Origin: Rhodospirillaceae bacterium
Lineage (GTDB): Bacteria; Pseudomonadota; Alphaproteobacteria; UBA828
Length of the DNA: 14,146 bases
Reading direction: 5' to 3'
Assembly (NCBI GenBank): GCA_028819955.1
Contig: JAPPKP010000416.1
Location: forward strand, 1 to 14,146
Under the pieces are notes generated by a model. The model searched no databases. It saw only the letters and a program-made list of their open reading frames with translations, and was not told the origin of the DNA. Positions 1 through 14,045 of this stretch are shown here, in pieces. The translations under genes were made by a program, and so were the position numbers. Each line of letters begins with the position of its first letter. Within the stretch, counting starts at the first letter, position 1.

Positions 1-501
1 GACACCTACGACTTCGCGGTGAAGCACGAGTGCAACATCCTCTCCTGGCCGCTCACCCGCCCGCTGTCGGAGGTCGAGGCCTACAAGGGGCGTATGGAGT
101 CAGCGCTCGCCGACAACCCCGGCAAGCGGCGGCCGATCTTCGCCACCATGCGCCACACCGTGGTGTACGACACTGCGGCGGAGTGGGAGGTGCCGGTGAA
201 GGCCGCGATCCGCCAGTTCGGCCAGTTCGAGAACCTGTTCAAGAACCTGGGCGACGTCGCCAACGGCTTCCCGCGCACGATCCCGCTTACGGAGCTGGAG
301 AACCGGGGCGAGTTCGACCCGCGCATGCTCCACGACAATCTGATGTTCGGCACGCCGGACGAGGTGATCCAGAAGCTCAGGGCCTACGAGGCGCTCGGCG
401 TCGACCAGTTCACCTACTACGCGAGCCTCGGCCTCGGAATGAAGGAGCAGAAGCGCTCGCTCAAGCTCTTCATCGAGGAGGTAATGCCGGCCTTCGCATG
501 A
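1..501 (+). CDS. LLM-class flavin-dependent oxidoreductase, C-terminal part (5' truncated by window)
   Basis: The frame is open from base 1 and ends at a TGA at 499-501, so only the last 166 residues are present. The terminal segment, with a GTPDEVIQKL stretch followed by the GVDQFTYYASLG stretch and a final LKLFIEEVMPAF helix, is typical of the C-terminal end of bacterial luciferase-like (LLM) monooxygenases. There the G-[TS]-P-[ED]-V motif precedes the last barrel helix. The family uses reduced FMN or F420 to oxidise small organic substrates in the cytoplasm; nothing visible fixes the substrate. The next gene starts 38 bases downstream on the same strand and encodes an alpha/beta hydrolase, so the two are probably co-transcribed. 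The flavin-binding N-terminal half lies outside the window. Family assignment is fairly secure, specific function is unknown. Confidence 0.85.
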   Translation, partial: DTYDFAVKHECNILSWPLTRPLSEVEAYKGRMESALADNPGKRRPIFATMRHTVVYDTAAEWEVPVKAAIRQFGQFENLFKNLGDVANGFPRTIPLTELENRGEFDPRMLHDNLMFGTPDEVIQKLRAYEALGVDQFTYYASLGLGMKEQKRSLKLFIEEVMPAFA

Positions 502-538
502 GGGCGCGTGCGCTCCCGGCAACGAACAAGAGACGTCG

Positions 539-1387
539 ATGAGTACGAGCACCGCGGGCGAGACCGCCTGGGAGCGGCACGGCAGCGGGCCGCCGGTCGT
601 CCTGATCCACGGCTTCGGGCTCAACCGCGCCATGTGGCAGTGGCAGCTCCCGGCGCTCACGCCGCAGTTCAGCGTGCTGACTTACGACCTGCTGGGGCAC
701 GGCGAGAGCGCGCCTCCCGCCGGCACGCCCTGCCTCGCCATGTTCTCCCGGCAGCTTCTCGGCCTCATGGACCGCTGCGGCATCGAGCGGGCAGCTATCG
801 TCGGCTTCTCGCTCGGCGGCATGATCGCGCGCCGCGCCGCGCTGGATCATCCAGACCGGCTGTCGGCGCTCGCGATCCTGAACTCGCCGCACGACCGCAG
901 CCCGGCCGAGCGCGAGGCGGTCCGGGCGCGCGTGCGTCAGACCGAGACCGACGGACCTGCCGCCAATGTCGAGCCCGCTCTCGAGCGCTGGTTCACGCCG
1001 GCCTTCCGCGCCGAGGCGCCGGAAACCGTCGCGCTCGTCCGCAGGTGGATCGCGCGCAACGATCCCGCCCTCTATCCGCAGATCTACCGGGTGCTCGCCG
1101 AGGGCGACGCCGAGATCGCCAATGGCCTGGAGCGGATCGCGTGTCCCGCCCTGGTCATGACCGGAGAGGACGACCCCGGCAACACGCCCGCCATGGCGCG
1201 GGTCATGGCCGGGCTGATCCCCGGCGCCCGGCTCGCGATCCTGCCCGGCCTCAGGCACATGGCGCTCGCCGAAGCGCCGGAGACTGTCAACGCGCCGCTT
1301 TGCGCCTTCCTGCGCGACGCAACAATCAGGCTCCAAGAATCTGTACACGGATCGGGGACGGTCGCCCCCCGGCAGCCGGGTTGTTGA
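539..1387 (+). CDS. alpha/beta hydrolase
   Basis: A 282-residue alpha/beta hydrolase-fold protein, the usual length for this family. The oxyanion-hole HGFG lies at residues 24-27, the nucleophile elbow GFSLGG places Ser91 as nucleophile, the acid is probably Asp212 in GEDDPGN, and His240 sits in GLRHMAL. The triad order Ser-Asp-His is therefore complete and the enzyme should be active. It resembles 3-oxoadipate enol-lactonase/haloperoxidase-type hydrolases, but the substrate (ester, lactone or C-C bond) cannot be told. There is no signal peptide, so it is cytoplasmic. It follows the LLM monooxygenase gene by 37 bp, and an oxygenase-hydrolase pair fits Baeyer-Villiger-like oxidation then ester cleavage; that is inference. 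The ATG at 539 is preceded only by a weak AAGAGA. The 3' end overlaps the tail of the convergent DUF1989 gene by 62 bp. Confidence 0.9.
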   Translation: MSTSTAGETAWERHGSGPPVVLIHGFGLNRAMWQWQLPALTPQFSVLTYDLLGHGESAPPAGTPCLAMFSRQLLGLMDRCGIERAAIVGFSLGGMIARRAALDHPDRLSALAILNSPHDRSPAEREAVRARVRQTETDGPAANVEPALERWFTPAFRAEAPETVALVRRWIARNDPALYPQIYRVLAEGDAEIANGLERIACPALVMTGEDDPGNTPAMARVMAGLIPGARLAILPGLRHMALAEAPETVNAPLCAFLRDATIRLQESVHGSGTVAPRQPGC

Positions 1388-1952
1388 CTTGAGGGCAGTT
1401 GGAGACGATCGCGAGGACGTCGCGCTCGGCCCGCAAGTCGACGCGATCGCCGGGCTTGGATGGGCCGTCCACGAACGTCCGCTCCGCCAGACGGCCCCCC
1501 TCATAGACCGGCACTGCCGAGAAAAAGTTCACGTTGGGCACGATATCCGTCCACCCCAGGCCATGTTCCGCCAGGGTGGTCAGGAAGTTCTCGCGGCATC
1601 CCGGCACGCCTTCCACGCCGTAGAGCATGGCGTTGCTGGGGGCACTGCAGCAGCCGGCGATGGTGTCGTGACGGCCGCAGGTGTCGGCCACAATCGTGAA
1701 GAGCGCTCGTCCCCGGTCCGAGTAGAGCGCATGGCCCGTGGTCAGGCGAAGCGTGCCGCTCTTCTTGATCGTGTTCGGCGCGTAGTAGCGCTCGCGCGGG
1801 TCGGCCGCGTCGTAGCACAGGAAATCGACGCCCTGTTCGCCCTCCAGGTCGACGATACGCAGCACCTGGTCCCGCTGCAGGCGGGCCGACCACGGCGCGC
1901 CCGGCGCCACGACCTCGTCCCGGACAACAGGTAGCGCACCCCCATCGTTCAT
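1326..1952 (-). CDS. DUF1989 / urea carboxylase-associated family protein
   Basis: A 208-residue protein with the hallmarks of DUF1989 (urea carboxylase-associated proteins). The N-terminal beta segment has RIVDLEGEQGVDFLCY (residues 32-47). A central ADTCGRHDT motif (89-97) is followed by a GCC pair (100-102), then GCREN (118-122), a FFSAVPV segment, SKPGD (165-169) and SNCPQ (184-188). Conserved Cys and His residues suggest metal binding. Family members usually sit beside urea carboxylase or amino-acid permease genes, but no carboxylase or allophanate hydrolase gene is seen here, so its role in this context is open. The ATG at 1952 has a good GGAGGG Shine-Dalgarno (complement of 1960-1965) seven bases upstream. 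It is divergent from the LLM gene starting at 2112 and convergent with the hydrolase, with overlapping 3' ends. Confidence 0.9.
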   Translation of the reverse strand: MNDGGALPVVRDEVVAPGAPWSARLQRDQVLRIVDLEGEQGVDFLCYDAADPRERYYAPNTIKKSGTLRLTTGHALYSDRGRALFTIVADTCGRHDTIAGCCSAPSNAMLYGVEGVPGCRENFLTTLAEHGLGWTDIVPNVNFFSAVPVYEGGRLAERTFVDGPSKPGDRVDLRAERDVLAIVSNCPQVNNPAAGGRPSPIRVQILGA

Positions 1953-1989
1953 CGCTGTGCCCTCCGGTCTGACCCGCCGCCTACCCTAA

Positions 1990-1999
1990 CCCATATGGG
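1990..1999. promoter_or_regulatory. 10-bp perfect palindrome in divergent intergenic region
   Basis: CCCATATGGG is a perfect 10-bp palindrome in the 159-bp divergent region between the DUF1989 gene and the LLM oxidoreductase gene. Its place upstream of both starts fits an operator, but a 10-bp palindrome can arise by chance and no regulator gene is adjacent. Confidence 0.2.
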
Positions 2000-2036
2000 C
2001 CACGCCGAACTCCCACGAGTCATCTTGGCGCGCGTT

Positions 2037-2079
2037 TTGTGATCCGCGGCGCCCGACTATCATACGGCCGATGAATCGG
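2037..2079 (+). promoter_or_regulatory. candidate sigma70-like promoter with dyad at the start point
   Basis: TTGTGA (2037-2042) and TATCAT (2058-2063, five of six matches to TATAAT) are separated by 15 bases, a short but tolerable spacer. The imperfect palindrome CCGAT-GA-ATCGG lies at 2068-2079, about where transcription would begin, a classic place for a repressor operator. The start codon at 2112 follows about 40 bases later. Assignment is by eye only. Confidence 0.3.
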
Positions 2080-2100
2080 ATCGGACCGCCGTGTGGCTCT

Positions 2101-2106
2101 GGGAGG
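2101..2106 (+). promoter_or_regulatory. Shine-Dalgarno deciding the start of the 2112 gene
   Basis: GGGAGG lies five bases before the ATG at 2112. The same frame is open from a GTG at 2091, but that codon lies upstream of this site and lacks its own. Family proteins begin at the MDFGI-type strand encoded from 2112, so 2112 is preferred. Confidence 0.7.
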
Positions 2107-2111
2107 CTGTA

Positions 2112-3071
2112 ATGGACTTCGGAATAACCATTCCCAATTACGGGCCGCTTGCCCACCGTGACGCCATTACCGCGATCGCGCGCCAGGCCGAGGCCCTTGG
2201 CTTCGGCTACATGGCGATTGCCGATCACATCGTCATTCCCAAGACCTGGAACTCCTTCTATCCCTATTCGCCGACCGGGTGGGTCGACATCTTCGATGGC
2301 GGCGACTGCCTGGAACCGTTGGCGCTGATGGCGGCGCTCGCTCTCGCGACCCGGAAGGCGCAGCTGCTCACAGCCGTGCTGGTGGTGCCCTATCGCCCGC
2401 CCATCCTGACTGCCAAGCAGCTGGCAACAATCGACGTCCTCTCCGAAGGACGGGTCACCATCGGATGCGGGACGGGCTGGATGCGGGAGGAGTTCGAGGC
2501 CATCGGCGCCCCGCCCTACGAGGCACGCGGCCCGGTGACGGACGAGTACATCGAGGCCTTCCGGGCGATGTGGACGAGCGACGAGCCCGCTTACGAGGGG
2601 GAGTACGCCCGCGTCGCGGACATCTATTTCCGTCCCCAGCCGGTCCGCAAGCCGCACCCGCCGATCTGGATCGGCGGCGACAGCATGCCGGCGCTGCGCA
2701 GGACGGCGCGCCTCGGCGACGGCTGGCTGCCGGTCGGCATCGCGCCGAAACGCCCGCTCGACACGGTCGCCAAGTATCGGGAAGCTGCCGAGACCCTCGC
2801 CAGCCTCGCGCGCGATGCTGGTCGCGACCCGGCCGAAATCGCGCTCAATTATTGGGCCGTCTGGTACGACGAGAGCAGGCGCGCCACGCTCGATGACGGC
2901 AGCCGCCACATCTTCACCGGCGAGGCCGCCGAGGTCGCCGCCGATATCGACGCGCTCGCAGAAGTCGGTGTCAGCGCTGTCCTCTTCAGCTTCGTCCGAG
3001 GCACCCTCGACGAGACCCTCGCGAGCACCGAGCGCTTCGCCCGCGACGTGATGCCGCTGGTGGGCAGCTAG
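2112..3071 (+). CDS. TIGR03619-type LLM-class F420/flavin-dependent oxidoreductase
   Basis: A 319-residue, full-length luciferase-like TIM-barrel oxidoreductase. It starts with the family's first strand (MDFGITIPNYG), has a YMAIADHIV segment near residue 40, and the barrel hallmark TIGCGTGWMREEFEAIG in the middle. Next comes the YFRPQPVRKPHPPIWIGG signature that marks the TIGR03619 (Rv2161c-like) group, followed by LRRTARLGDGWLPVG. The group is often annotated as F420-dependent; in proteobacteria FMN is equally likely and the sequence does not decide it. It acts in the cytoplasm on an unknown substrate. It is divergently arranged with the DUF1989 gene and stands alone on its strand, with the next plus-strand gene more than 1 kb away. 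It is distinct from the truncated LLM protein at the left edge. Confidence 0.9.
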   Translation: MDFGITIPNYGPLAHRDAITAIARQAEALGFGYMAIADHIVIPKTWNSFYPYSPTGWVDIFDGGDCLEPLALMAALALATRKAQLLTAVLVVPYRPPILTAKQLATIDVLSEGRVTIGCGTGWMREEFEAIGAPPYEARGPVTDEYIEAFRAMWTSDEPAYEGEYARVADIYFRPQPVRKPHPPIWIGGDSMPALRRTARLGDGWLPVGIAPKRPLDTVAKYREAAETLASLARDAGRDPAEIALNYWAVWYDESRRATLDDGSRHIFTGEAAEVAADIDALAEVGVSAVLFSFVRGTLDETLASTERFARDVMPLVGS

Positions 3072-3252
3072 AGCAGTATCCGACCTTACGGGGTCACGGC
3101 GGCTCGAACGGCGCCACAATAAACCCGACGGCGAGGGAATGAGATACAAGGTGGGGGCATCCTGGCGGCACTGCATGCAGACAGGGGAACGTGCGACGAC
3201 CGCGTCCGATCGAATGATGCTCCAGATTGTCTTGGCTTCGCGCGGAGACGCT

Positions 3253-4122
3253 CTACCCGAACGCGGCGAGGACCGCGACGCCGCCGACCACCATGGCGAC
3301 GCCGCCCCATTGCAGCGCAGACACTGGCTCGCGCAGGAACATCCGCGCCAGCACCACCGTCACCACCGTGTAGCCCACGCTCGCCACGATCGCGTGCTCG
3401 CCGTTCGGGAGCCTGAGGCCGAAATAGAGCAGCAGGTGGCCCATGGTATCGAGGATCCCGAAGGCGGCCACGATTGGCCAGGCCCGTGCCGGAAACGGCA
3501 CACGCCGCCGGCGGGCAAGCAGGATCGCCGCTACCCCCGCGAAGCCGAAAATGCGAACCACCAGCACGGTCTGCCAGGGGCCGTAGATGTCGATGGCCTT
3601 GTCCGCGGCGGTAAGCGAGGCGGCGTAGACCGCCGCCGCAATCAGGGCATAGAGAATGGTCCGCCGCATCACGGCAGGCGCATATTCCGGTGCGGTCCTG
3701 TCCCCGGACGCCGTCGCCCGCGCCACCAGCCAGACCCCGGCCATGGTGGCGATCATGGCGCCCCAGTGGAGCGGATCGGGCCGGGCGCCGAGGGCGACCG
3801 AGATCGGCACGGCGATCGCCGGATAGCAGGCCACCACCGGCGAGGCGAGCGACACCGGACCGTGGGTCACGGCGTGGTAGAACAGAAGCGAGCCGATCAC
3901 GGTGCCGGCGCCGATCCCGACAAGCCAGTGGAGGCCGTCGAGGCGCCAGTCGAAGGGCTGGCCCGACGCTGCCATGATGGCTGCGATCAGCACGCCGCCG
4001 ACCGCCATCATGGAGCAGGTCGCCGCCAGCACGCCCACCGAGCGACCGGAGAACCGCGCGCAAATGTCCGCGAGGCCCCAGGCGAGCGCGCAGCCCGCAC
4101 CCCAGGCGGCCGCGCTCTCCAT
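3253..4122 (-). CDS. DMT superfamily (EamA) transporter
   Basis: A 289-residue hydrophobic protein with about ten predicted membrane helices in two EamA repeats of about 140 residues each. The first begins at the GCALAWGLADICARF helix and the second near the ILYALIAAAVYAASL helix. Length and helix count match drug/metabolite transporters of the inner membrane, which commonly export amino acids or other small metabolites. I chose the ATG at 4122; a GTG immediately upstream (4125) is equally possible and the ribosome-binding site is weak. The gene is divergent from the GlxA/AraC-type regulator (start 4357) across about 230 bp, so shared control is plausible and the cargo may relate to quaternary amine metabolism. 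That link is inference. Its 3' end faces the LLM gene across a 181-bp gap in which I see no clear terminator. Confidence 0.9.
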   Translation of the reverse strand: MESAAAWGAGCALAWGLADICARFSGRSVGVLAATCSMMAVGGVLIAAIMAASGQPFDWRLDGLHWLVGIGAGTVIGSLLFYHAVTHGPVSLASPVVACYPAIAVPISVALGARPDPLHWGAMIATMAGVWLVARATASGDRTAPEYAPAVMRRTILYALIAAAVYAASLTAADKAIDIYGPWQTVLVVRIFGFAGVAAILLARRRRVPFPARAWPIVAAFGILDTMGHLLLYFGLRLPNGEHAIVASVGYTVVTVVLARMFLREPVSALQWGGVAMVVGGVAVLAAFG

Positions 4123-4356
4123 CACAAGACCGCCGTCACGATGTCATGCGATCATGCGGGGCAGCCGTCCGCGCACGCGCTGGCGACCGAGTTGAGGGAT
4201 GGCGGTTGGACGGCGAAGCCATGGCGGCGCGGATTATGGGCGAGGGCGCCCGCGATAGCGACCCGGCCCGCCAGAGAATTCTGTTTCCCCATCCGTCCTG
4301 AGATGTCGTAATTTGAATAGAGCATTGCGGGGAGGCGCCTGACCGGCGTCGATGCC
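4123..4356. promoter_or_regulatory. divergent intergenic region between transporter and regulator
   Basis: About 234 bp separate the divergent starts of the DMT transporter and the GlxA/AraC regulator, so promoters for both must lie here. An AT-richer patch around 4290-4325 (with TAATTT and GAATAG) is the likeliest core-promoter zone for the regulator. I could not assign convincing -35/-10 pairs or an operator. Confidence 0.4.
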
Positions 4357-5373
4357 ATGAGGACCACCGATCCCGGGAGCCAATTCGGCTTCCTGATGGT
4401 CCCGAAGTTCTCGCTCGGTGCGCTCTCGAGCGCGATCGAGTCGCTTCGGCTCGCCAACTACGTCAGCGGACAGACCCTCTACGAGTGGCGCACCGTCTCC
4501 GTGGACGGCGAAGCGGTGGCGTCATCGGCCGGGCTCAGCGTCGCTGCGGGCCTCTCCATCGGAGACGCCGCCGAGCGCCTGTCGACCGTCTTCGTCTGCG
4601 GCGGCATCGAGACCCACCTGTTCGAGGACACGCGGCTCGCCATCTGGCTGCGCCAGATCGAGCGGCGCGGCATGAACATCGGCGCTCTCTGCACGGGCAG
4701 CCATTTTCTGGCGCGCCTCGGGCTGCTCGACGGCTATCGCTGCACCATCCACTGGGAGAACCTGCCGGGCTTCATCGAGGATTTTCCAAGCGTGGACGTC
4801 AGCGAGGACATCTTCGTCATCGACCGCAACCGCTACACCTGCGCGGGCGGCATGGCGGCCTCCGACATGATGCTGAGCTTCATCAACCGCGATCACGGGT
4901 ATGAGCTGGCCGCCGCGGTGTCGGAAAACCTGGTGTGCGAGCGGATCAGGGGCGAGGACGACCACCAGAGGATGGCGTTGCGCCTGCGCCTCGCGGTCAG
5001 CCAGCCCAAGCTTCTCTCCACCATCAACGTGATGTCGGAGAATATCGAGGCGCCGCTCAGCCAGACCGAGCTGGCGCGGGAAATCGGCCTCTCCACCCGC
5101 CAGCTTGAACGGCTGTTCCTCAAGTACTTGAACTGCCCGCCCAGCCGCTATTACCTCGAAATGCGGCTCAACCGCGCGCGCGCCCTGCTGCAGCAGACCT
5201 GCATGTCCGTGACCAACGTGGCGCTCGCCACGGGCTTCGTCTCGGCATCGCATTTCTCGAAGTCGTTCCGTCTGCACTTCGGCCACGCGCCGCGCGACAC
5301 GAAACGGCTGACCAGCGGCTCGCCTCCGTTCCGCGCGGTCGATGCCGACTTGCCGGACTCGGCGTCTCTGTAA
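4357..5373 (+). CDS. GlxA family AraC-type transcriptional regulator (GbdR/CdhR-like)
   Basis: A 338-residue regulator with an N-terminal DJ-1/PfpI-like amidotransferase-fold sensor domain (about residues 9-195; Cys112 in GALCTGSH occupies the nucleophile-elbow position) and a C-terminal AraC double helix-turn-helix (about 225-320). The second HTH contains the GFVSASHFSKSFRLHFG signature. The LSTRQLERLFLKYL and SRYYLEMRLNRAR segments, and the linker with DDHQRMALRLRL, closely resemble GbdR and CdhR, the activators of glycine betaine and carnitine catabolism in Pseudomonas. It is therefore likely to sense a quaternary amine and to activate the corrinoid methyltransferase operon that starts 236 bp downstream on the same strand, and perhaps the divergent transporter. 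ATG 4357 fits the family N-terminus, although the GGGGAGG upstream (near 4330) is too far to serve it well. Regulator class is secure; the ligand is inferred. Confidence 0.92.
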   Translation: MRTTDPGSQFGFLMVPKFSLGALSSAIESLRLANYVSGQTLYEWRTVSVDGEAVASSAGLSVAAGLSIGDAAERLSTVFVCGGIETHLFEDTRLAIWLRQIERRGMNIGALCTGSHFLARLGLLDGYRCTIHWENLPGFIEDFPSVDVSEDIFVIDRNRYTCAGGMAASDMMLSFINRDHGYELAAAVSENLVCERIRGEDDHQRMALRLRLAVSQPKLLSTINVMSENIEAPLSQTELAREIGLSTRQLERLFLKYLNCPPSRYYLEMRLNRARALLQQTCMSVTNVALATGFVSASHFSKSFRLHFGHAPRDTKRLTSGSPPFRAVDADLPDSASL

Positions 5374-5382
5374 CGCGCTCAA

Positions 5383-5395
5383 GCACCAAGGGTGC
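5383..5395 (+). terminator. small hairpin after the regulator gene (weak terminator candidate)
   Basis: GCACC-AAG-GGTGC forms a five-pair stem with a three-base loop about 10 bp after the regulator stop codon. No T-run follows, so if it ends transcription it does so weakly or with Rho. Confidence 0.2.
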
Positions 5396-5464
5396 CCCAA
5401 GCGAGGACAGCACGGCCGGCCGATCATGGGTTTGTCGCAGGCCGGCAAGCCGGCGTCGCGTCTG

Positions 5465-5477
5465 GGACAGACTGTCC
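5465..5477. promoter_or_regulatory. perfect dyad GGACAG-A-CTGTCC, candidate operator of the corrinoid operon
   Basis: A perfect 6+1+6 inverted repeat lies in the gap between the regulator gene and the corrinoid protein gene, about 130 bp before the latter's start. It is the strongest short dyad in this gap and is well placed for an activator site. AraC-family proteins more often bind direct repeats, so the assignment to the adjacent regulator is tentative. Confidence 0.35.
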
Positions 5478-5554
5478 GCCCCATGTGATTGAAGAGAAAC
5501 AGGGTTAAGGTGCCGCGCGCATGCCCGCAACGCGGGTCCGCAAAGGGGGGCGTG

Positions 5555-5583
5555 CGGCGCCGAAAAGCAACAGCCCGGCGCCG
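5555..5583 (+). promoter_or_regulatory. GC-rich leader hairpin before the corrinoid protein gene
   Basis: Two copies of the 8-bp palindrome CGGCGCCG (5555-5562 and 5576-5583) can pair to form an eight-base-pair stem with a 13-base A-rich loop, with one more G-U pair possible at the base. The structure ends about 15 bases before the AGGA ribosome-binding site (5598-5601), so in mRNA it could influence translation or stability. A smaller hairpin CCCGC-AAC-GCGGG lies just upstream (5524-5536). I see no cobalamin-riboswitch signature. Confidence 0.35.
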
Positions 5584-5597
5584 TCAACGCCCGGATC

Positions 5598-5601
5598 AGG
5601 A
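5598..5601 (+). promoter_or_regulatory. Shine-Dalgarno deciding the corrinoid protein start
   Basis: AGGA lies eight bases before ATG 5610. The in-frame GTG at 5604 is only two bases from it, too close to be used, so 5610 is the preferred start. Confidence 0.6.
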
Positions 5602-5609
5602 CAGTGGCC

Positions 5610-6320
<711 letters not shown>

Positions 6321-6332
6321 GTCCTGCACGCA

Positions 6333-7016
6333 ATGATAGAAGCCGCGACATACGAGCACACCGATCTCTCGGTCGACGAGGAGGCCGCGTTCGCCTCCGC
6401 CGGGCCGGCCCGCGCGCTGGTCATCGCCTGCGGCGCGCTCGCGCGCGAGATCGTGGACTTTCGCGCGGCCAACGGCTTCGATCATCTCGACATCACCTGT
6501 CTGCCGGCCAAGCTGCACAACCGCCCGCACCTGATCCCGGACGCGGTGCGCGCGAAGATCCAGGCGAACCGGGCGGACTACAGGTCGATCTTCGTGGCCT
6601 ATGGCGATTGCGGCACCGGCGGCCTGCTCGACAAGGTGATCGAGGAGGAAGGCGTGGAGCGCATCGGGGGGCCGCACTGCTACGCCTTCTACACCGGCCA
6701 GGAGGCCTTCGCGGCGATCACCGACGACGACCCCACCCAGTTTTTCCTGACCGACTACATGGTGCGCCACTTCGACCGGCTGATCGTCGAAGGCCTGGGG
6801 CTGGACCGCTGGCCCGAGCTGCGCGACGACTACTTCGGCAACTACACGAACTGCGTCTACATCTCCCAGGTCCGCGACGCGGCGCTGGAGGCCAAGGCCC
6901 GCGAGGCGGCCGGGCGGCTGAGGCTCGGCTACGTCCATCGCCACGTGGGCTACGGCGAGCTCGCGGCTTTCATGAAAACGGCGGCAGCAGCCGGTGAAGA
7001 AGCAGGAGCAGCATGA
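6333..7016 (+). CDS. DUF1638 domain-containing protein
   Basis: A 227-residue cytoplasmic protein of the DUF1638 family, whose biochemical role is not established as far as I know. Visible conserved-looking elements are the IACGALAREI strand-loop (Cys33), TCLPAKLHNRPHLIP (Cys56, His62, His66), the glycine-rich YGDCGTGG loop (Cys93), GGPHCYAFY (His115, Cys116) and YTNCVYI (Cys174). The five Cys and three His residues could bind a metal or a cofactor. The gene lies between the corrinoid protein and the methyltetrahydrofolate methyltransferase genes. It overlaps the latter by four bases (ATGA, 7013-7016), implying translational coupling and a role in the corrinoid pathway. DUF1638 genes recur beside MttB-type systems in other bacteria (recollection, not checked). 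Possible roles are corrinoid loading, activation or substrate handling; none is demonstrated. Confidence 0.9.
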   Translation: MIEAATYEHTDLSVDEEAAFASAGPARALVIACGALAREIVDFRAANGFDHLDITCLPAKLHNRPHLIPDAVRAKIQANRADYRSIFVAYGDCGTGGLLDKVIEEEGVERIGGPHCYAFYTGQEAFAAITDDDPTQFFLTDYMVRHFDRLIVEGLGLDRWPELRDDYFGNYTNCVYISQVRDAALEAKAREAAGRLRLGYVHRHVGYGELAAFMKTAAAAGEEAGAA

Positions 7017-7939
7017 CACGCACCATCGTCAGTTCTGCCACCAAAGAGGTGGCGATCGGGTTCGACGAGCCCTTCTGCATCATCGGCGAGCGGATCAATC
7101 CCACCGGACGCAAGCTGCTGATGGCGGAGATGGCGGCCGGTGACTATTCGCGGGTGGAGAAGGACGCGCTGGCCCAGGTCGCGGCCGGCGCGCACATGCT
7201 CGACGTCAACGCGGGCGTGCCGCTCGCCGACGAGCCCAGGATCCTCGCCGACTGCATCCAGCTTGTGCAGTCACTAGTGGACGTGCCGCTCTCCATCGAC
7301 AGCTCCATCGTGGCCGCGCTCGAGGCAGGATTGGAGGTCTACCAGGGTAAGCCGCTGCTCAACTCCGTCACCGGCGAGGAGGAGCGGCTTGAATCTGTGC
7401 TGCCGCTGGTCAAGAAGTACGGCTGCGCCGTCGTCGCCATATCCAACGACGAGAGCGGCATCTCCGAGGACCCCGACGAGCGCTTCGCGATCGCGAAGAA
7501 GATCGTCGAGCGCGCCATGGACCACGGCATCCCCAAGGAGGACGTGGTGGTCGATCCCCTGGTCATGCCCATCGGCGCCATCAACAAGGCGGGCGTGCAG
7601 GCCTTCGCCATCATGCGCCGGCTCAAGGAGGAGCTCGGCGTGAACTCCACCTGCGGCGCGTCCAACATCGGCTTCGGCCTGCCCAACCGGCCGAGCGTCA
7701 ACGCGGCCTTCCTCAGCATGGCGGCGCGCTCGGGCCTCACGTCCGCGATCATGAACCCGCTGCACGAGGCCGAGATCGCCGCGGTCATGGCTGCCGACAT
7801 GATGAACGGCAACGATCCCGATTGCGCGCGCTGGCTTACCCGCTTCCGCGAGCCGGCGGGCGCGAACGGCAGCGAGGGCAGGCGCGGCCGGCGCGAGGGG
7901 CGCCGGCGCCGGCGGGAGGGCGCCGCCGTCAGCGCGTGA
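7013..7939 (+). CDS. methyltetrahydrofolate:corrinoid methyltransferase (pterin-binding domain; MtgA/AcsE-like)
   Basis: A 308-residue TIM-barrel pterin-binding enzyme. Motifs in order are GERINPTG (25-32), LDVNAG (63-68), SIDSS (94-98), LLNSVTG (115-121), VDPLVMP (180-186) and SNIGFGLPNRP (217-227). Asn218 probably corresponds to the Asn that contacts N5 of folate in acetogen MeTr. It should transfer the methyl group from the corrinoid protein to tetrahydrofolate, feeding one-carbon metabolism, as MtgA does in Desulfitobacterium glycine betaine metabolism; the reverse is also chemically possible. A good AGGAG (7004-7008) precedes ATG 7013, which overlaps the DUF1638 stop. The catalytic domain ends near residue 282, after which comes an unusual tail (283-308) with nine arginines within residues 290-301. 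The activator gene begins four bases after the stop. Confidence 0.93.
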   Translation: MTRTIVSSATKEVAIGFDEPFCIIGERINPTGRKLLMAEMAAGDYSRVEKDALAQVAAGAHMLDVNAGVPLADEPRILADCIQLVQSLVDVPLSIDSSIVAALEAGLEVYQGKPLLNSVTGEEERLESVLPLVKKYGCAVVAISNDESGISEDPDERFAIAKKIVERAMDHGIPKEDVVVDPLVMPIGAINKAGVQAFAIMRRLKEELGVNSTCGASNIGFGLPNRPSVNAAFLSMAARSGLTSAIMNPLHEAEIAAVMAADMMNGNDPDCARWLTRFREPAGANGSEGRRGRREGRRRRREGAAVSA

Positions 7940-7943
7940 GCGC

Positions 7944-9944
7944 ATGACCGAATCGGCCTTCGTCGTCTTCGCGCCGTCCGGCAAGCGCGGGCGGTTCCCC
8001 CACGGCACCTCGGTCCTCGACGCGGCGCGCTCCATCGGCGTCGATCTCGATTCCGTATGCGGCGGCCGCGGCCTCTGCGGCCGCTGCCAGGTGGAGGCCG
8101 GCACCGGCCACTTCGCCAAGTTCGGGATCGAGAGCGCGCCCGGCCATCTGAGCCCAACGGGCGAGAAGGAAGCCCGCTACGCCAGCCGCCGCGGCCTCGC
8201 GGAACGCCGCCGGCTGGGCTGCTCGGCCCTCATTCGGGGCGATGTCGTCATCGACGTGCCGCCCGAGAGCCAGGTGCACAAGCAGGTCGTGCGCAAGCGC
8301 GCCGAGGCCAGGGACTACACCATCGATCCCGCGATCCGGCTGCACTATGTCGAGGTCGCGGCACCGGACATGCACAATCCGCGCAGCGACTTCGAGCGCC
8401 TCACGGACGGGCTCGCCGAGCAATGGGGCCTCGACGGCCTCACGTGTGACCTGCACGTCCTGCAAGGCCTGCAGCGCGCGCTCCGGGACGGCGAATGGTC
8501 GGCGACGGTCGCGGTGCACCAGGCTGCGCGCATCGTCGCCGTCTGGCCCGGCTTCCACGAGCAGGCGTATGGCGCGGCCTTCGACATCGGCTCTACCACC
8601 ATCGCCTGTCATCTGGCCGAGATATCGAGCGGCGTCGTCGTGGCCTCTGCCGGGCGCATGAACCCGCAGATCCGCTTCGGCGAGGATCTGATGAGCCGGG
8701 TCTCCTACGTCATGATGAACCCCGGCGGCGAAGCCGAGCTGACCGAGGCCGTGCGCGGCGCGGTCAACGCGCTGATCGGCGAGGTTGCGGACCAAGCAGG
8801 CGTCGCGCGCAGCGACATTCTCAACGCTGCCTTCGTCGGCAACCCGATCATGCACCACCTGCTGCTCGGCATCGACCCGACCGAGCTTGGCGGCGCGCCC
8901 TTCGCCCTCGCGGCCTCCGGCGGGCTTACGCTGCCGGCGGGCGGCATCGACCTCGACGTCAATCCGGGCGCGCGCGTCTACGTCCTGCCCTGTATCGCAG
9001 GCCACGTCGGCGCCGACGCGGCGGGCGTCGTGCTCTCCGAAGCCCCGCACCGGGCCGACGAGACGGTGCTCATCGTCGATGTCGGCACCAATGCCGAGAT
9101 CATGCTCGGCAATCGTGAGCGGCTGCTGGCCGCGTCCTCGCCCACGGGCCCGGCCTTCGAAGGCGCGCAGATCACAGCCGGCCAGCGCGCGGCCCCCGGC
9201 GCGATCGAGCGCGTGCGCATCGACCGCGACACGCTGGAGGCCAGGGTCAAGGTCGTCGGCTGCGAGCTTTGGTCCGACGAGGAAGGATTCCAAGAGGCCA
9301 CGGTCGCCACCGGCGTCACCGGCATCTGCGGCTCGGGCATCATCGAGGCGCTGGCCGAGATGTACCTTGCCGGCATTCTGCTCGCCGACGGCACCATCGC
9401 GGGCGCCGCGCGCGCCAGGACCGCGCGCATCGTCGAAGAGGGGCGGACCTTCCGCTACCTGCTCCATCCTAGCGAGCCGGCGATCTCCATCCATCAGAAC
9501 GACGTTCGCGCCATTCAGCTGGCCAAGGCGGCGCTCATGGCCGGCGCGCGGCTGCTCATGGACCGCTTCGAGACTTCGACGGTCGACCGGATCGTGCTCA
9601 CCGGCGCCTTCGGCAGCCATATCGACCCGCTCTACGCCATGGTGCTCGGCATGATCCCCGACTGCCCGCTCGACAAGGTGAGTGCCGCCGGCAACGCTGC
9701 CGGCACGGGCGCGCTGATCGCGCTGCTCGACTGCGCGGCGCGCGAGGAGATCGAGGGGATCGTGCGCGGGGTCGAGAAGGTGGAGACCGCCGTCGAGCCC
9801 GCGTTTCAGCGTCACTTCGTCGACGCCATGGCGATCCCCCACGGCACGGCGGACTACGTCCACCTGCCGCAGCACGTCACCCTGCCTGCTGCGGAGGCAG
9901 CACCGTCCCCAACCGCCCGCCGCCGCACCCGCCGCCGCCGGTAG
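7944..9944 (+). CDS. ferredoxin/ASKHA reductive activator of corrinoid protein (RACo/RamA-like, DUF4445)
   Basis: A 666-residue protein. Its N-terminal plant-type [2Fe-2S] ferredoxin domain has ligands Cys39, Cys45, Cys48 and Cys93 (C-x5-C-x2-C and a distant LGC). A linker leads to a large ASKHA (actin-like ATPase) domain with the phosphate loop DIGSTT (214-219) and the second phosphate motif DVGTNAE (379-385). This architecture is that of RACo, which uses ATP and a low-potential electron to return accidentally oxidised Co(II) corrinoid to Co(I). Domain order and length are normal for that group, unlike methanogen RamA, which carries C-terminal [4Fe-4S] clusters. It is the last gene of the operon and should repair the corrinoid protein encoded at 5610-6320. 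The C-terminus ends in an arginine-rich tail (SPTARRRTRRRR). The electron donor is not apparent in the window. Confidence 0.93.
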   Translation: MTESAFVVFAPSGKRGRFPHGTSVLDAARSIGVDLDSVCGGRGLCGRCQVEAGTGHFAKFGIESAPGHLSPTGEKEARYASRRGLAERRRLGCSALIRGDVVIDVPPESQVHKQVVRKRAEARDYTIDPAIRLHYVEVAAPDMHNPRSDFERLTDGLAEQWGLDGLTCDLHVLQGLQRALRDGEWSATVAVHQAARIVAVWPGFHEQAYGAAFDIGSTTIACHLAEISSGVVVASAGRMNPQIRFGEDLMSRVSYVMMNPGGEAELTEAVRGAVNALIGEVADQAGVARSDILNAAFVGNPIMHHLLLGIDPTELGGAPFALAASGGLTLPAGGIDLDVNPGARVYVLPCIAGHVGADAAGVVLSEAPHRADETVLIVDVGTNAEIMLGNRERLLAASSPTGPAFEGAQITAGQRAAPGAIERVRIDRDTLEARVKVVGCELWSDEEGFQEATVATGVTGICGSGIIEALAEMYLAGILLADGTIAGAARARTARIVEEGRTFRYLLHPSEPAISIHQNDVRAIQLAKAALMAGARLLMDRFETSTVDRIVLTGAFGSHIDPLYAMVLGMIPDCPLDKVSAAGNAAGTGALIALLDCAAREEIEGIVRGVEKVETAVEPAFQRHFVDAMAIPHGTADYVHLPQHVTLPAAEAAPSPTARRRTRRRR

Positions 9945-10333
9945 CGCCGATGCGAATCCCTCACCGCAGTCCCCGTCCGGTCGTGTCACGCATCCCGGCG
10001 AGCACACAAAATCTTGGCGGGATTAAGTGGGATTAAGTGAGATAAATGGGATTCCGTGGGATAAATGGGATTCCGCGGGATAAGTGGGATTCCGCGGGAT
10101 AAATGGGATTTCGTGGGATAAGTGGGATTCCGCGGGATTAGTTGGGATTAAGCGGGATAGGCGGGATTCTTCGGGACAAGCGGTGGCCGGCATGGGCCGC
10201 AGCCACGCGACCAAGAAGCGCCCTCTCGCCGCCGCTGACCCGCTCTGACTGCTCGCGTTCCGCATCGCGCAATCGTGACGCTTTCGCTGCGCGCCGTGCA
10301 CCGCACCATGGTCCGGGGCCGGACCGGTGGGTT
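9945..10333. other. 389-bp gene-free convergent gap
   Basis: This gap separates the 3' ends of the activator gene and the MttB-family gene. Its middle (10019-10177) is a phased GGGAT minisatellite, listed separately. The flanks (9945-10018 and 10178-10333) show no coding potential that I can support. The right flank contains the tight inverted repeat GGTCCGG-GG-CCGGACC (10310-10325), eight bases beyond the minus-strand stop codon, without a T-run. Confidence 0.7.
10019..10177. repeat. phased GGGAT minisatellite (about 19-nt dimeric unit)
   Basis: Seventeen pentamers (fifteen GGGAT, one GAGAT at 10039, one GGGAC at 10173) start at intervals of 9 or 10 bases. Between 10048 and 10134 the intervals alternate strictly 10, 9, 10, 9, giving a 19-nt unit built from GGGATTCCGC and GGGATAAAT or GGGATAAGT. 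The ends are more degenerate (GGGATTAAGT and similar). The internal ATTCCGCGGGAT is close to self-complementary. The array fills the middle of the convergent intergenic gap. It has no spacers of unique sequence, so it is not a CRISPR array. Function is unknown; a role as transcription boundary, protein-binding array or simple slippage product are all possible. Confidence 0.9.
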
Positions 10334-11869
10334 CTAGGCGAAGGCGTCGGGCATGGACGCCTTCTTCTTCGCGATGAACTCCCTGAGCGCTTCGTCCACG
10401 CCGGGGTCGATGGGCGGCGCCTCGTAGGAGGCCAGCATCGATTTGTACAAGTCGTGCGCCCGCTGCGTGGTGTCCTTGGAGCCGTCCGACTGCCATTGCT
10501 CGAAGCTCGAATTGTCGGCGACGGGGGAGCGGTAGAAGGCGGTCTGGAAGTTCGCCTGGGTGTGGGCGCAGCCGAGGAAGTGGCTGCCCGGCCCGACCTC
10601 GCGGATCGCATCCAAAGCCTGCCCGTTGGCCGATAGGTCGTAGCCGTTTGCCAACACCTGCATCATGCCGAGCTGGTCGGCGTCCATGACGAACTTCTCG
10701 TAGCCGCTCGCGAGCCCGCCTTCGAGCCAGCCGGCGCCGTGCAACACGAAGTTGGTGCCGGCGAGCACGGTCGGCAGCAACGTGTTTACGCTCTCGTAGG
10801 CGGCCTGCGCGTCGGGCAGCTTCGATGCGGTGAGCGCGCCCCCGCTGCGGAAGGGGACGCCCAGGCGCCGGGCCAGCGCGGCCAGGCCGAAGATCGCGAG
10901 CGTCGCCTCCGGCGTGCCGAAGGTGGGTGCGCCGCTCTGCATCGACATCGAGCTAAGGAAGCTGCCGAAGATCACCGGCGCCCCCGGCCGGCAAAGCTGG
11001 GCGAGGGCGATGCCGGCCATGGCTTCCGCAAGCGTCTGCGCCATCGTGCCCGCGACCGAGACCGGCGCCATCGCGCCCGCCAGGATGAACGGGGTGATCA
11101 GCAGGCCCTGGTTGGCCCGGGCGTAAACCTTGAGCGCGCCCAGCATGGTCGCGTCGAAGGTCATCGGCGAGTTGGCGTTGATCAGGCTGACCATGACGGC
11201 CTGGGCATCGACCACGTCCGCGCCGAAGAGGATCTTCGCCATCTCCACCGAATCCGCCGCGCGCTCGGGGTGCGTGACCGAGCCCATGAACGGCTTGTCG
11301 GAATAGCGTATGTGCGCGTACACCATGTCGAGGTGGCGCTTGTTCACGGGCACGTCCACCGGCTCGCAGACCGTGCCGCCGGAGTGGTGCATCGCCGGCG
11401 TCATATAGGCGAGCTTGACGATGTTCTGGAAGTCCTCGAGCTGGGCGTAGCGGCGCCCCTTCTCGATATCGTAGATGAAGGGCGGGCCATAGACCGGCGC
11501 GAAGACCGTATTGCGGCCGCCCATCTCGACCGATCGCTCGGGGTTGCGGGCAAGCTGCGTGAAGGTTGGCGGCGCGGTCGAGACCAGGTGGCGCGCGAGG
11601 CCGCGCGGGAACCGCACCCGTTCGCCGTCGATGTCCGCGCCGGCATCCTTGAAGAGCGCGAGCGCCTCAGGGTCATCGCGAAAATCGATCCCGATCTCCT
11701 CGAGGATCGTGTCCGCGTTCTCCTCGATCAGCGCCAGCCCCTCGTCGGTCAGCAGCCCGACAGAGGGGATGTCGCGCGTGATGTAGCGGAGCTGCTCGAT
11801 CCCGCCGCCGGTCCGCTCCGCGCGCCGCGCCGCGCGCCCGCCGCCGCGGCGACCGCTTCGTCTCGTCAT
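10334..11869 (-). CDS. trimethylamine methyltransferase (MttB) family protein, non-pyrrolysine, probable quaternary-amine:corrinoid methyltransferase
   Basis: A 511-residue member of the MttB superfamily, close to the usual length of about 480-500 plus an N-terminal extension. Characteristic stretches include FRDDPEALALFKDAGAD near the N-terminus, HHSGGTVCEPVDVP, the GSVTHPERAADSV region, AGAMAPVSVAGTMAQTLAE and SGGALTASKLPDAQAAYES. The frame has no internal amber codon, so it is of the non-pyrrolysine type, like glycine betaine methyltransferase MtgB and the proline betaine and carnitine enzymes MtpB and MtcB. It would start the pathway by transferring a methyl group from an N-methylated substrate to the corrinoid protein. 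The ATG at 11869 is preceded by GGCGG at about five bases. Residues 1-20 are arginine-rich (eight Arg). It is transcribed toward the rest of the module from its own promoter rather than within the operon. The substrate is undetermined; glycine betaine is suggested only by the regulator type. Confidence 0.92.
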   Translation of the reverse strand: MTRRSGRRGGGRAARRAERTGGGIEQLRYITRDIPSVGLLTDEGLALIEENADTILEEIGIDFRDDPEALALFKDAGADIDGERVRFPRGLARHLVSTAPPTFTQLARNPERSVEMGGRNTVFAPVYGPPFIYDIEKGRRYAQLEDFQNIVKLAYMTPAMHHSGGTVCEPVDVPVNKRHLDMVYAHIRYSDKPFMGSVTHPERAADSVEMAKILFGADVVDAQAVMVSLINANSPMTFDATMLGALKVYARANQGLLITPFILAGAMAPVSVAGTMAQTLAEAMAGIALAQLCRPGAPVIFGSFLSSMSMQSGAPTFGTPEATLAIFGLAALARRLGVPFRSGGALTASKLPDAQAAYESVNTLLPTVLAGTNFVLHGAGWLEGGLASGYEKFVMDADQLGMMQVLANGYDLSANGQALDAIREVGPGSHFLGCAHTQANFQTAFYRSPVADNSSFEQWQSDGSKDTTQRAHDLYKSMLASYEAPPIDPGVDEALREFIAKKKASMPDAFA

Positions 11870-11952: not shown

Positions 11953-12083
11953 CGCGCGTGCCGTGCCTGACTTGCGGAATTGCGACCGAAAACCGCCATG
12001 CCGCGCCTCAGTGCATTCGAGCTGCGCCATATTTCCGTCCAATTCTGGTGCAACGTTCGCCTCAACGGCCGGGGTGACTGACG

Positions 12084-12905
12084 TTGCGGCTTCTTCACAG
12101 GGGGCTATGGCTCGGAGGACACCCGCCGCGATTGCGTCGGGCGCTCGTCGTGGGCTGTGCCATGGTCCTGATCGGCTCCGTGACGGCGGTCGCCCCGGCT
12201 GACCCGGTCGAATCCGGCGAAACGACTCTTCTCCACCCGTCTCCCTGGGCAGCGGCCGAGGCCGAGGCGCAATTCTTGGCCGACCGAATTCTTCGAAGAG
12301 TAGGCGGCGGGCTGTTGCTGGACGACGAGCGCCAGCACGCGCTCGGTCACGAGGTCAAGCAGGCGTTGTCGCTGATTCGCCGCAGGTATCCTGCGATGGC
12401 GGACGTTCGCGTGCGGGAGGAATACAGGCCGGGGAGGATCATACTCGGACTGGAGGGTGGGCTACGCGACACCGTCGTCGGCACCTGGAACGATGAGAAC
12501 GCGCTCGCCCCGCCGCCCACTGGGCACGCGGCTTTCGATGCCCTCAATGCAAAGTTGGGGCTCAGGGCTGCCGAGACGCTCCGCCATGGCGGCTACGCTT
12601 TCCTGGACGTGGACGAGCGCGTGGACGTGGTGGAGGCGACTCTTGCCTACTTCACGATCGACGGCGTCGCCCACGCCCGGCCCGATTGGGCGGTGGGGGA
12701 CAGCTCCGATATCGACGCGGCCGAGGTGCAGGGTACCTGGCACGTCGTCTTTCGTGACGCATGGGGCGACTGCCCGGCCGGCTGTATCCACAGCGAGCTC
12801 TCGTTCTTCACCGTAGCGGACGGTGAGGTCCGACGGATCGAGCCCCCAGAGGCGCGCGCGATGGGCCCCTTCGCGACGCTGCTCGCAGACCGAGGTTGGC
12901 GCTGA
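12084..12905 (+). CDS. putative exported protein of unknown function with DCPAGC motif
   Basis: A 273-residue frame that I do not recognise as a named family. Arginines around residues 16-19 are followed by a hydrophobic stretch (about 20-37, ALVVGCAMVLIGSVTAVAPA), which looks like a signal peptide with cleavage near Ala-Pro-Ala. No clear lipobox is visible. The C-terminal part has GTWHVVFRDAWGDCPAGC (residues 217-234), then a serine and aromatic-rich beta stretch ending in FFTV. The two close cysteines (230 and 234) could form a disulfide in the periplasm. The start is uncertain: TTG at 12084 gives the longest form, while TTG at 12132 with a distant GGAGG at 12114-12118 still keeps the signal peptide. 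It is divergent from the MttB-family gene and convergent with the amidohydrolase gene, 27 bp away. No operon partner. Confidence 0.72.
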   Translation: MRLLHRGLWLGGHPPRLRRALVVGCAMVLIGSVTAVAPADPVESGETTLLHPSPWAAAEAEAQFLADRILRRVGGGLLLDDERQHALGHEVKQALSLIRRRYPAMADVRVREEYRPGRIILGLEGGLRDTVVGTWNDENALAPPPTGHAAFDALNAKLGLRAAETLRHGGYAFLDVDERVDVVEATLAYFTIDGVAHARPDWAVGDSSDIDAAEVQGTWHVVFRDAWGDCPAGCIHSELSFFTVADGEVRRIEPPEARAMGPFATLLADRGWR

Positions 12906-12932
12906 TCGAGAAGGCCGCGCCGAGGCGCCCGC

Positions 12933-14045
12933 TCAGGCCGCCGGCAGGTCGAAGTTGTAGAAGCGGGCACAGTTGTTGAAGGTGATGTCGCGCCGTGTCT
13001 CCTCGTCCAGATGGCCGAAGACACGCTCGATCACCGCCATCGTGTTCGGGTAGGTGCAGCGCGCGTGGGGAAAATCCGAGCCCCACATGATGGTCTTCGG
13101 GTCGATCACGTCCAGCACCTTGTCGAGGTAGGGATCGTCGATCAGCCCGTGATAGATCTGGCCCATGTACGCCTCGATCGGTCGCTTGACCTTGGGGATG
13201 TCCAGCGCCGGCCCAAAATCGTCCTGAATCTGCTTGGCGCGGAACAGCCAGTAGGGCAGCCAGCAGACCTCGTACTCCGAGAGCACCAGCTTTAGGTTCT
13301 CGAAGCGGTCGAGCACGCCGCCGAAGATGAACTCGTTGGCGAGCACGGGCCCCGCCTCCGCCAGCACGCCCATGGCGCTGCGCGGCACGTTGCTGCGCTC
13401 TGGCCCATGCAGGACGAACGGGTCGATCTCGTTGCCGGTGATGATGTGAAGCGTCACCGGCTGGTCCAGCTCCTGCGCGAGCGCCCAGAAGGAGTCGTAG
13501 TGCCTGTCCTGAAACGGCGGCCACTCGGGCCGTGCGTCGCAGTTGATGATCACGCTCTTCAAGCCGCGCTTCGCGGTGCGCTCCAGCTCCTTGCAGGCCC
13601 AGTCGATGTCCGCCATGTGGATCATCGAGGTGCCGTAGAGGCGCTTCGGCGCATGGCTGCAGTATTCGGCGAGCCAGTCGTTGAACACGCTGCACAGGTC
13701 CTCGACCAGCCGGTCGTCCCGCGCGCGCATCGCGTAGAGCATCCAGGTCGAGTTCACGATCTCGCCGACGACGTTGTCCTCGTCCATGCAGACGAGGCGG
13801 ATCGCAGGGTCGGTGCCCGAGCCCACCAGCTTCCGCTGCAGCTCCTCGTCGCCCTCCACGATCTCGTCCACGCGGACGTACTCGAAGCCCGTGAAGAAGT
13901 GATCGGCCTTGGCGCCGGCATGTTCGGAGACCATGCGCGGCACGGCATCGCCGTAGCGCGCGCCCAGCGGCTTGGTCCAGAGGTCCGCCGGCTCGATGAC
14001 GTGGGAATCGCCGGAAATTACGGGCAGCTGTCCGTTTGCAGACAT
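12933..14045 (-). CDS. amidohydrolase family protein (amidohydrolase_2)
   Basis: A 370-residue TIM-barrel metal-dependent hydrolase of the amidohydrolase_2 (PF04909) type, the group that includes ACMSD-like decarboxylases and 6-methylsalicylate/gamma-resorcylate decarboxylases. The N-terminal metal motif is GDSHVIEP (Asp13-x-His15, the usual D-x-H variant), TLHIITG supplies His200, and WGSDFPH provides Asp324 and His327. The conserved segment SEYEVCWLPYW (256-266) matches the family's E-x-G/V-x-W-x-P-Y region. It acts in the cytoplasm by hydrolysis or decarboxylation of an unknown substrate. ATG 14045 gives a typical N-terminus; the ribosome-binding site is weak. A probable membrane protein gene ends about 31 bases upstream on the same strand, so the two may be co-transcribed. 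There is no obvious link to the corrinoid module. Confidence 0.9.
   Translation of the reverse strand: MSANGQLPVISGDSHVIEPADLWTKPLGARYGDAVPRMVSEHAGAKADHFFTGFEYVRVDEIVEGDEELQRKLVGSGTDPAIRLVCMDEDNVVGEIVNSTWMLYAMRARDDRLVEDLCSVFNDWLAEYCSHAPKRLYGTSMIHMADIDWACKELERTAKRGLKSVIINCDARPEWPPFQDRHYDSFWALAQELDQPVTLHIITGNEIDPFVLHGPERSNVPRSAMGVLAEAGPVLANEFIFGGVLDRFENLKLVLSEYEVCWLPYWLFRAKQIQDDFGPALDIPKVKRPIEAYMGQIYHGLIDDPYLDKVLDVIDPKTIMWGSDFPHARCTYPNTMAVIERVFGHLDEETRRDITFNNCARFYNFDLPAA

Follow-up and report, generated by a model that had tools for sequence, protein, structure and literature searches.

A putative glycine betaine demethylation module of the MtgBCD kind, with a GbdR-like regulator and operator-like repeats, in a Rhodospirillaceae bacterium

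The gene block and its conservation

We analyzed a 14,146-nt stretch of DNA from a Rhodospirillaceae bacterium (assembly GCA_028819955.1, contig JAPPKP010000416.1; hereafter the window, in which all coordinates are given). A block of six genes between positions 4357 and 11869 had been described, in a prediction made from the letters alone, as a self-contained corrinoid demethylation module under a GbdR-like regulator. We consider it probable, with a chance of about four in five, that this block encodes a glycine betaine demethylase of the aerobic proteobacterial MtgB/MtgC/MtgD kind. Checking of the open reading frames (ORFs) found all six open where they had been placed, and Pfam and NCBIfam scans bore out the gene content and families of the original prediction.

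Five of the genes lie on the + strand. The first (4357..5373) encodes a GbdR-like activator of the GATase1/AraC type of 338 amino acids (aa), with PF01965 (DJ-1/PfpI) and the AraC helix-turn-helix domains PF12833/PF00165; its best NCBIfam model is NF052371 GbdR. It is followed by an MtgC-like corrinoid-binding protein (5604..6320, 238 aa; PF02607 and PF02310), which carries DIHDIG, a DxHxxG motif, at residue 114, by a DUF1638 protein (6333..7016, 227 aa; PF07796, 91.8 bits), described in the literature as a B12-reactivation partner, and by a pterin-binding protein (7013..7939, 308 aa; PF00809) that appears to be an MtgD-like methyl-tetrahydrofolate (methyl-THF):corrinoid protein methyltransferase, scoring 360.3 bits with PRK07535/NF005719 (cut-off 259). 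The run ends with a RamA/RACo-like reductive activator (7944..9944, 666 aa) matching the RACo linker, middle and C-terminal families PF17650, PF17651 and PF14574. Its N-terminal part holds ferredoxin-like cysteines at residues 39, 45, 48 and 93, a spacing that we take to be a [2Fe-2S] ferredoxin pattern; the Pfam scan reported no ferredoxin domain there. The sixth gene, on the - strand and convergent with the five-gene run, encodes an MtgB-like, non-pyrrolysine MttB-family methyltransferase (10334..11869, 511 aa; PF06253, 777.9 bits).

A search with the MttB protein returned at least 8000 matches at E 0.001, and the gene order of the window is repeated in all five of the nearest genome loci (L001-L005), so the gene set is far from a chance assembly. 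DNA identity over the aligned parts is about 90% to L001 and L002 and 76% to L005. Scanning of genome contigs with MttB confirmed at least 577 relatives among at least 595 matched stretches, of which the best 80 loci were kept; many of the contigs are short, and the loci share ancestry, so that locus counts are not independent. With this in mind, MtgC, DUF1638, the pterin protein and the activator lie on the same stretch as mttB in 27 of the 80 loci by tblastn, and these four core genes together with mttB and a relative of the regulator in 18. Stricter ORF clustering gave 16/80 loci for the four core genes and 25/80 for the regulator. The enzyme genes recur in the clusters of S. meliloti and Paracoccus, accompanied there by metF and its partner; the Paracoccus cluster also has a GlxA-type regulator. 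The predicted alphaproteobacterial user is consistent with these relatives, on which the assignment of organism type rests: the nearest loci belong to alphaproteobacterial metagenome-assembled genomes (MAGs), and a haem-copper oxidase was found in 4 of the 5 nearest genomes (G001-G005; completeness not stated, several being MAGs).

In the DUF1638 protein (window 6333-7013), Cys33, Cys93, Cys116, His62 and His115 are invariant in 15 aligned sequences, including that of the window. A role in B12 reactivation was assigned to this family from mutant fitness in P. inhibens (PMC5764234), and the invariant residues could possibly form a metal or cofactor site in such a protein. The predicted structure is confident (predicted local distance difference test, pLDDT, 87.5). 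Because the fold search gave TM-scores below 0.4 for all 50 PDB matches listed, function was not read from the fold.

The MttB-family protein

The mttB frame contains no in-frame stop and no UAG, and in alignment Leu occupies the pyrrolysine column, in agreement with the prediction of a pyrrolysine-free homologue. The protein scores 294.4 bits with the trimethylamine methyltransferase model TIGR02369, under its cut-off of 525. A pyrrolysine insertion element was considered on account of a sub-threshold Rfam PYLIS_3 match within mttB (10732-10834, - strand; 36.3 bits, gathering threshold 38) and was rejected, the match probably reflecting plain homology with mttB.

A PDB search yielded five distinct relatives only. 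Identity is 69% to the S. meliloti protein 4yyc, 46% over 470 residues to Desulfitobacterium hafniense MtgB (DhMtgB) and 27% to 7xcl. Four residues that a docking model places around glycine betaine in DhMtgB, Y94, N199, R309 and H345 (PMC6855144), are all retained in the window protein, and its full seven-position pattern, YNRHWGG, is common to 86 of 111 aligned rows. In a tree of 72 rows, which carries a long-branch warning and whose root serves for drawing only, the window protein falls in a 46-row clade with 4yyc (support 100/97), and DhMtgB branches outside 66 other rows. The phylogeny proposed along with the original prediction thus places the protein with 4yyc, in a comparison that covered MtgB and MttB only.

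Several other homologues were observed during these comparisons. Genomes G001-G004 each carry a second MttB (L097-L100), 41-42% identical, in which the position of Tyr94 of the pocket is Gly; these proteins likely act on another substrate. In L123 (342-9452; Rhodobacter), an MttB homologue of 56% identity lies near a Rieske oxygenase, a hybrid-cluster oxidoreductase and a glycine betaine/proline ABC transporter. Homologues of about 44% identity in L126 (8001-9431) and L125 (8001-9455) lie near genes of the dihydrodipicolinate-synthase type and genes for aldehyde dehydrogenase and flavin adenine dinucleotide (FAD) oxidoreductase; L126 also has a gene of the enolase superfamily nearby. We suspect hydroxyproline-betaine-like substrates for these two homologues. 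Lastly, the mttB of L017, a record named Mycobacterium sp. KBS0706, groups with alphaproteobacterial mttB genes, which may reflect a wrong name or assembly, or a transferred gene.

The regulator and the operator-like repeats

GbdR was the best model for the regulator of the window, and the module regulators of G001-G005 score 389-402 bits with it. In each of G001-G004 the module regulator is the sole match to this model in the genome at E 0.001. The window protein is 47-49% identical to proteins above the GbdR cut-off. One of these proteins, in Pseudomonas borbori, scores 644 bits and is encoded 1.5 kb from mttB; in Denitromonas, a GbdR of 538 bits is encoded 3 kb from mttB. P. borbori also encodes a GbcA above the cut-off (815 vs 670 bits) on another contig, and Denitromonas encodes GbcA- and GbcB-like proteins below the cut-off on the same contig as GbdR and mttB (PF00848, a broad family, served only to find GbcA candidates). 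Bacteria with both demethylases and with GbdR beside mttB include P. borbori and perhaps Denitromonas. In the latter, at L130-L131, mttB, GbdR, the GbcA- and GbcB-like genes and sarcosine oxidase alpha were observed within about 30 kb.

Two direct repeats in the window resemble the operators of GbdR-class regulators. An exact GTCGC-N16-GTCGC lies at 5434..5459 (+), 145-170 bp upstream of mtgC, and GGCGC-N16-GTCGC, exact to the pattern GNCGC-N16-GTCGC, lies at 11982..12007 (-), 113-138 bp upstream of mttB. The 21-bp direct repeat was noticed in the alignment of mtgC upstream regions before comparison with published CdhR sites. In PMC5806209, CdhR half-sites are given as GGTCGC with a 15-bp spacer, an arrangement equal to GTCGC-N16-GTCGC, and are called "very similar" to the sites of GbdR, SouR and ArgR; the distal half-site of GbdR is given as GCCGC.

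Among relatives the repeat is spacing-specific. With at most one mismatch it was found upstream of mttB in 34 of 82 loci (25 other spacings gave 0-7 and shuffles 1.8) and upstream of mtgC in 21 of 35 (1-8 and 0.8, respectively). The refined pattern GNCGC-N16-GTCGC, chosen after the sites had been seen, occurs exactly in 28/82 mttB upstreams (shuffles 0.6) and 13/35 mtgC upstreams (shuffles 0.2), with at most 2 at other spacings and with 6/82 and 1/35, respectively, in a reverse-complement control. When loci were thinned to proteins less than 80% identical, the exact repeat persisted in 8/27 mttB and 3/13 mtgC upstreams (shuffle means 0.2 and 0.0); when longest-ORF starts were used, the repeat with at most one mismatch dropped to 22/80 and 16/32. 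With these starts, the same relaxed repeat precedes 8 of 9 GcvT-type flavoprotein genes, 6 of 10 deformylase genes and 5 of 18 DAO/FAO_M flavoprotein genes, and across all ORFs other than mttB and mtgC the repeat was present in 46 of 476 upstreams vs 15-27 at five other spacings. L134, 14 kb of G005, holds two exact sites. The first precedes mtgC, and the second is found 112-137 bp ahead of a gene of the dimethylglycine (DMG)-dehydrogenase type. The second lies on the side of an opposite-strand transporter gene, whose longest frame overruns the site and whose family match starts after residue 160.

These observations suggest that a GbdR-like activator acts on mtgC and mttB through the repeats, a regulatory proposal to which we give even odds. 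Several findings weigh against it. The regulator scores 383.7 bits with NF052371, short of the curated cut-off of 480; we therefore call it GbdR-like and not GbdR, and the original prediction of a GbdR-like regulator stands in this looser sense, with GbdR as the best model and operator-like repeats at both promoters. Presence of the operator does not track that of the regulator within a locus (Fisher p 0.31-0.73). Upstream regions of S. meliloti and Paracoccus hold only sites with 2-3 mismatches, and no relative of the regulator was found in the S. meliloti stretch. No mttB site was found in L002, whose MttB is 97% identical, and exact sites at both promoters of one locus occur in 2 of 35 cases, namely the window and L001, a near copy of it. 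When the window is simply scanned for the repeat, 10 are found where 7 are expected, and three of the window's five exact GNCGC-N16-GTCGC sequences sit inside genes. Nor was the gap-16 repeat enriched upstream of the regulator itself (1/25 at up to one mismatch vs 0.7 in shuffles). A conserved GTCGTAATTTGAATAG block at 4305..4320 (+), alike in 5 of 6 aligned loci but not in L004, is a possible single half-site there; by itself it is not above chance in the window, and no gap-16 repeat is found at the block.

Alternatively, the repeats may be sites of another GATase1/AraC regulator, similar to CdhR, SouR or ArgR, with the neighboring regulator sensing something else. The published likeness of CdhR sites to those of GbdR, SouR and ArgR (PMC5806209) speaks for this possibility, as do the lack of correlation between site and local regulator and the regulator tree, in which the window group was not resolved next to true GbdR. 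On the other hand, the only GbdR-model match in each of G001-G004 is the one in the module; the window protein is closer to the GbdR of P. borbori (48.9% identity) than to the other regulator of that species in the comparison (43.5%); and the first half-site, with C or G in second position, resembles the GCCGC distal half-site of GbdR. We regard this alternative, which concerns regulation only, as less likely than not.

The substrate

The MttB neighborhoods of the 80 loci, labeled by a family scan of one representative per cluster, argue for glycine betaine. Recurrent neighbors include MetF2, a MetF partner, a DAO/FAO_M flavoprotein, a flavoprotein with a GcvT-type domain, a choline/glycine betaine ABC transporter ATPase, sarcosine oxidase subunits, choline dehydrogenase, a frame of the betaine-aldehyde-dehydrogenase/BetI type, betaine-homocysteine methyltransferase, formyl-THF deformylase and FolD. 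By cluster label, 43 of the 80 loci have at least one gene of choline or betaine catabolism, or 31 when the broad DAO/FAO_M flavoprotein cluster is excluded. In five loci (L054, L067, L073, L077 and L078), betA, betB and a choline transporter gene accompany mttB and mtgC. A stretch of 12 kb in G005 encodes a BCCT transporter, the sole FAO_M protein of that genome, the regulator and the module. The transporter scores 495.6 bits, above the cut-off of the BCCT subfamily, and its best model is the glycine betaine BCCT (529.5 bits, below the cut-off of 650); the FAO_M gene is DMG-dehydrogenase-like. We read the substrate as glycine betaine because of the choline and betaine genes in 43/80 loci and these neighbors in G005.

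Four points count against this assignment. Pfam and NCBIfam scans of the window proteins found no choline or DMG gene. The 43/80 is a raw count that covers neighbors of mttB alone. The corrinoid protein scores below the curated cut-offs of the MtgC models NF047996 (209.3 bits, cut-off 370) and NF047995 (176.5 bits, cut-off 310). Finally, the pocket is not identical to that of DhMtgB, since F353 and I349 are replaced by Gly and Trp.

The same chemistry could serve another quaternary amine, for instance proline betaine, carnitine, choline or an undescribed betaine, with the nearby betaine genes reflecting shared uptake or regulation. Besides the pocket changes at F353 and I349, this alternative draws on the diversity of the family: as described in PMC12478193, R. 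pomeroyi produces two MttB proteins when grown on glycine betaine, marine bacteria have up to seven, and E. limosum homologues that vary in substrate are named. MttB proteins of 44-56% identity adjoin other catabolic genes, and a carnitine 3-dehydrogenase gene lies about 4.5 kb from the Paracoccus cluster. Set against it are the choline and glycine betaine genes in 43/80 loci of the clade, the BCCT transporter and DMG-dehydrogenase-type gene adjoining the module in G005, the five loci that combine betA, betB and a choline transporter with mttB and mtgC, and the GbdR-type regulator and operator-like repeats. We think another substrate improbable. The original prediction had left the substrate open and potentially undescribed; given the betaine gene context of relatives, this is possible but unlikely, and an undescribed substrate was retained as a rival and rejected as the preferred assignment.

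The proposed pathway

Glycine betaine thus remains our preferred substrate, and the gene families of the block support a corrinoid, folate-linked demethylation module, as had been predicted. In the scheme we propose, the MttB homologue (MtgB) would demethylate glycine betaine once, to DMG, with Co(I) of the corrinoid protein MtgC as the methyl acceptor, and the pterin-binding MtgD would pass the methyl group on to tetrahydrofolate to give methyl-THF, which would then be oxidized by a MetF-type enzyme encoded elsewhere. The RACo-like protein, aided by DUF1638, would re-reduce Co(II) after accidental oxidation. The GbdR-like activator may sense a betaine catabolite and, via pairs of GTCGC half-sites 21 bp apart, switch on mtgC-DUF1638-mtgD-activator as well as the convergent mtgB. 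All of these reactions, as well as the compound sensed by the regulator and the binding of the regulator to the repeats, are proposals based on which genes are present, on their families, conservation and context, and on the operator-like sites.

The description of the block as self-contained was overstated. Among the window proteins scanned against Pfam and NCBIfam there was no MetF, MtgE or DMG/sarcosine enzyme, so the block is not a complete pathway. Each of G001-G005 has a divergent MetF-type gene on another contig, and the best MetF of each of the other six genomes is a stronger match than any in G001-G005. Homocysteine-methyltransferase domains were found in 11/11 genomes, as was a sarcosine oxidase alpha above cut-off (TIGR01372 fires below its cut-off in all 14 controls, so only matches above it were counted); FAO_M proteins occur in 9/11 genomes and a BCCT transporter in 4/5 of the nearest.

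That the corrinoid core serves mainly methionine synthesis, as a split methionine synthase, with betaine demethylation secondary, we consider very improbable: the dual requirement for MtgC and MtgD in R. pomeroyi (PMC12478193) and the P. inhibens case (PMC5764234) favor it, as does G002, a possibly incomplete MAG in which no MetH activation domain was found, but that domain is present in G001, G003, G004 and G005, the scanned window proteins include no homocysteine-methyltransferase module although such domains occur elsewhere in G001-G005, and at 5/5 nearest loci the block includes MttB and a GbdR-like regulator. A methionine-synthase-like gene in L134 of G005 (12820-13938; PRK06520, 315.9 bits vs cut-off 313), which adjoins mttB and is divergent from it, recalls the methionine link of MtgC.

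Upstream of the block, luciferase-like, alpha/beta hydrolase, DUF1989 and EamA genes (window 1-4125) are found in the same order next to the module in L001 and L002, where the second luciferase-like gene (2091-3071) is absent. The DUF1989 protein matches part of a trimethylamine N-oxide (TMAO) demethylase model.

Comparison with known systems

Demethylation is the first step by which glycine betaine, an abundant osmolyte, comes to be used as food. The original prediction set an alphaproteobacterial corrinoid route against systems characterized in anaerobes, a contrast that is out of date, and its core idea is already in print because Mausz et al. (PNAS 2025, PMC12478193) describe aerobic MtgBCD, with genetic proof in R. 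pomeroyi and a pointer to the S. meliloti cluster. When grown on glycine betaine, R. pomeroyi produces proteins of the MttB family along with MtgC, a separate corrinoid protein, and MtgD, a pterin protein; mtgC and mtgD mutants are auxotrophic for methionine and, even when it is supplied, fail to grow on glycine betaine. RamA-like and DUF1638 proteins are named there as predicted reactivators, and S. meliloti carries the set in one place. Like the aerobic MtgBCD(E) system of these two organisms, the window encodes an MttB-family enzyme, a B12 protein separate from it, a pterin methyltransferase, a RamA-like activator and a DUF1638 protein, and the genes form a cluster, as they do in S. meliloti. 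It differs in that no metF or mtgE was found alongside and in that its block has a GbdR-like regulator and operator-like repeats.

The enzyme system has thus been known since 2025, and the proposed regulatory wiring is the new and interesting part. What this work contributes is evidence, drawn from sequence, that an activator of the betaine type may be wired to the promoters of the module. The word GbdR is absent from the main text of PMC12478193, regulation of the aerobic corrinoid route was not in the papers found, and a literature search limited to Creative Commons-licensed PubMed Central papers, which is weak evidence of absence, found no link of GbdR to MttB or corrinoid methyltransferases among the papers listed; of two listed papers that mention GbdR along with a related term, one deals with tuberculosis and the other has "corrinoid" in its reference list alone. 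If the operator reading is true, the aerobic corrinoid route becomes predictable from promoter sequence and tied to a betaine sensor, and it could be compared with the oxygen-dependent route in bacteria carrying both. The window is a compact set suited to sufficiency testing.

With the anaerobic MtgB of D. hafniense (2qne, 9yce) and Methanolobus vulcani, the window protein shares membership of the non-pyrrolysine MttB family, and with DhMtgB it shares 46% identity and the residues Y94, N199, R309 and H345. It departs from DhMtgB in having Gly and Trp for F353 and I349; DhMtgB branches outside the 66-row set, and the corrinoid protein of the window is below the MtgC cut-offs. The pyrrolysine MttB 7xcl is likewise of the PF06253 type, at 27% identity, but Leu stands at the pyrrolysine column in the window protein, and none of the four DhMtgB pocket residues that this protein keeps occurs in 7xcl.

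Pseudomonas GbdR is associated with gbcAB, genes of the oxygen-dependent route. The window regulator has the same GATase1-AraC architecture and 47-49% identity to proteins above the GbdR cut-off, and the operator-like repeats of the window consist of GTCGC-type half-sites phased at 21 bp, as in the CdhR/GbdR group (PMC5806209). The window regulator differs in scoring 383.7 bits against a cut-off of 480 and in adjoining corrinoid genes instead of gbcAB. Across Proteobacteria, GbdR-class activators, known from the oxygen-dependent GbcAB route, might generally switch on corrinoid demethylation of glycine betaine as well, driving mtgC and mttB through phased GTCGC repeats, a proposal for and against which the arguments seem to us about balanced; bacteria with both demethylases could then choose between an oxygen-consuming and an oxygen-sparing route.

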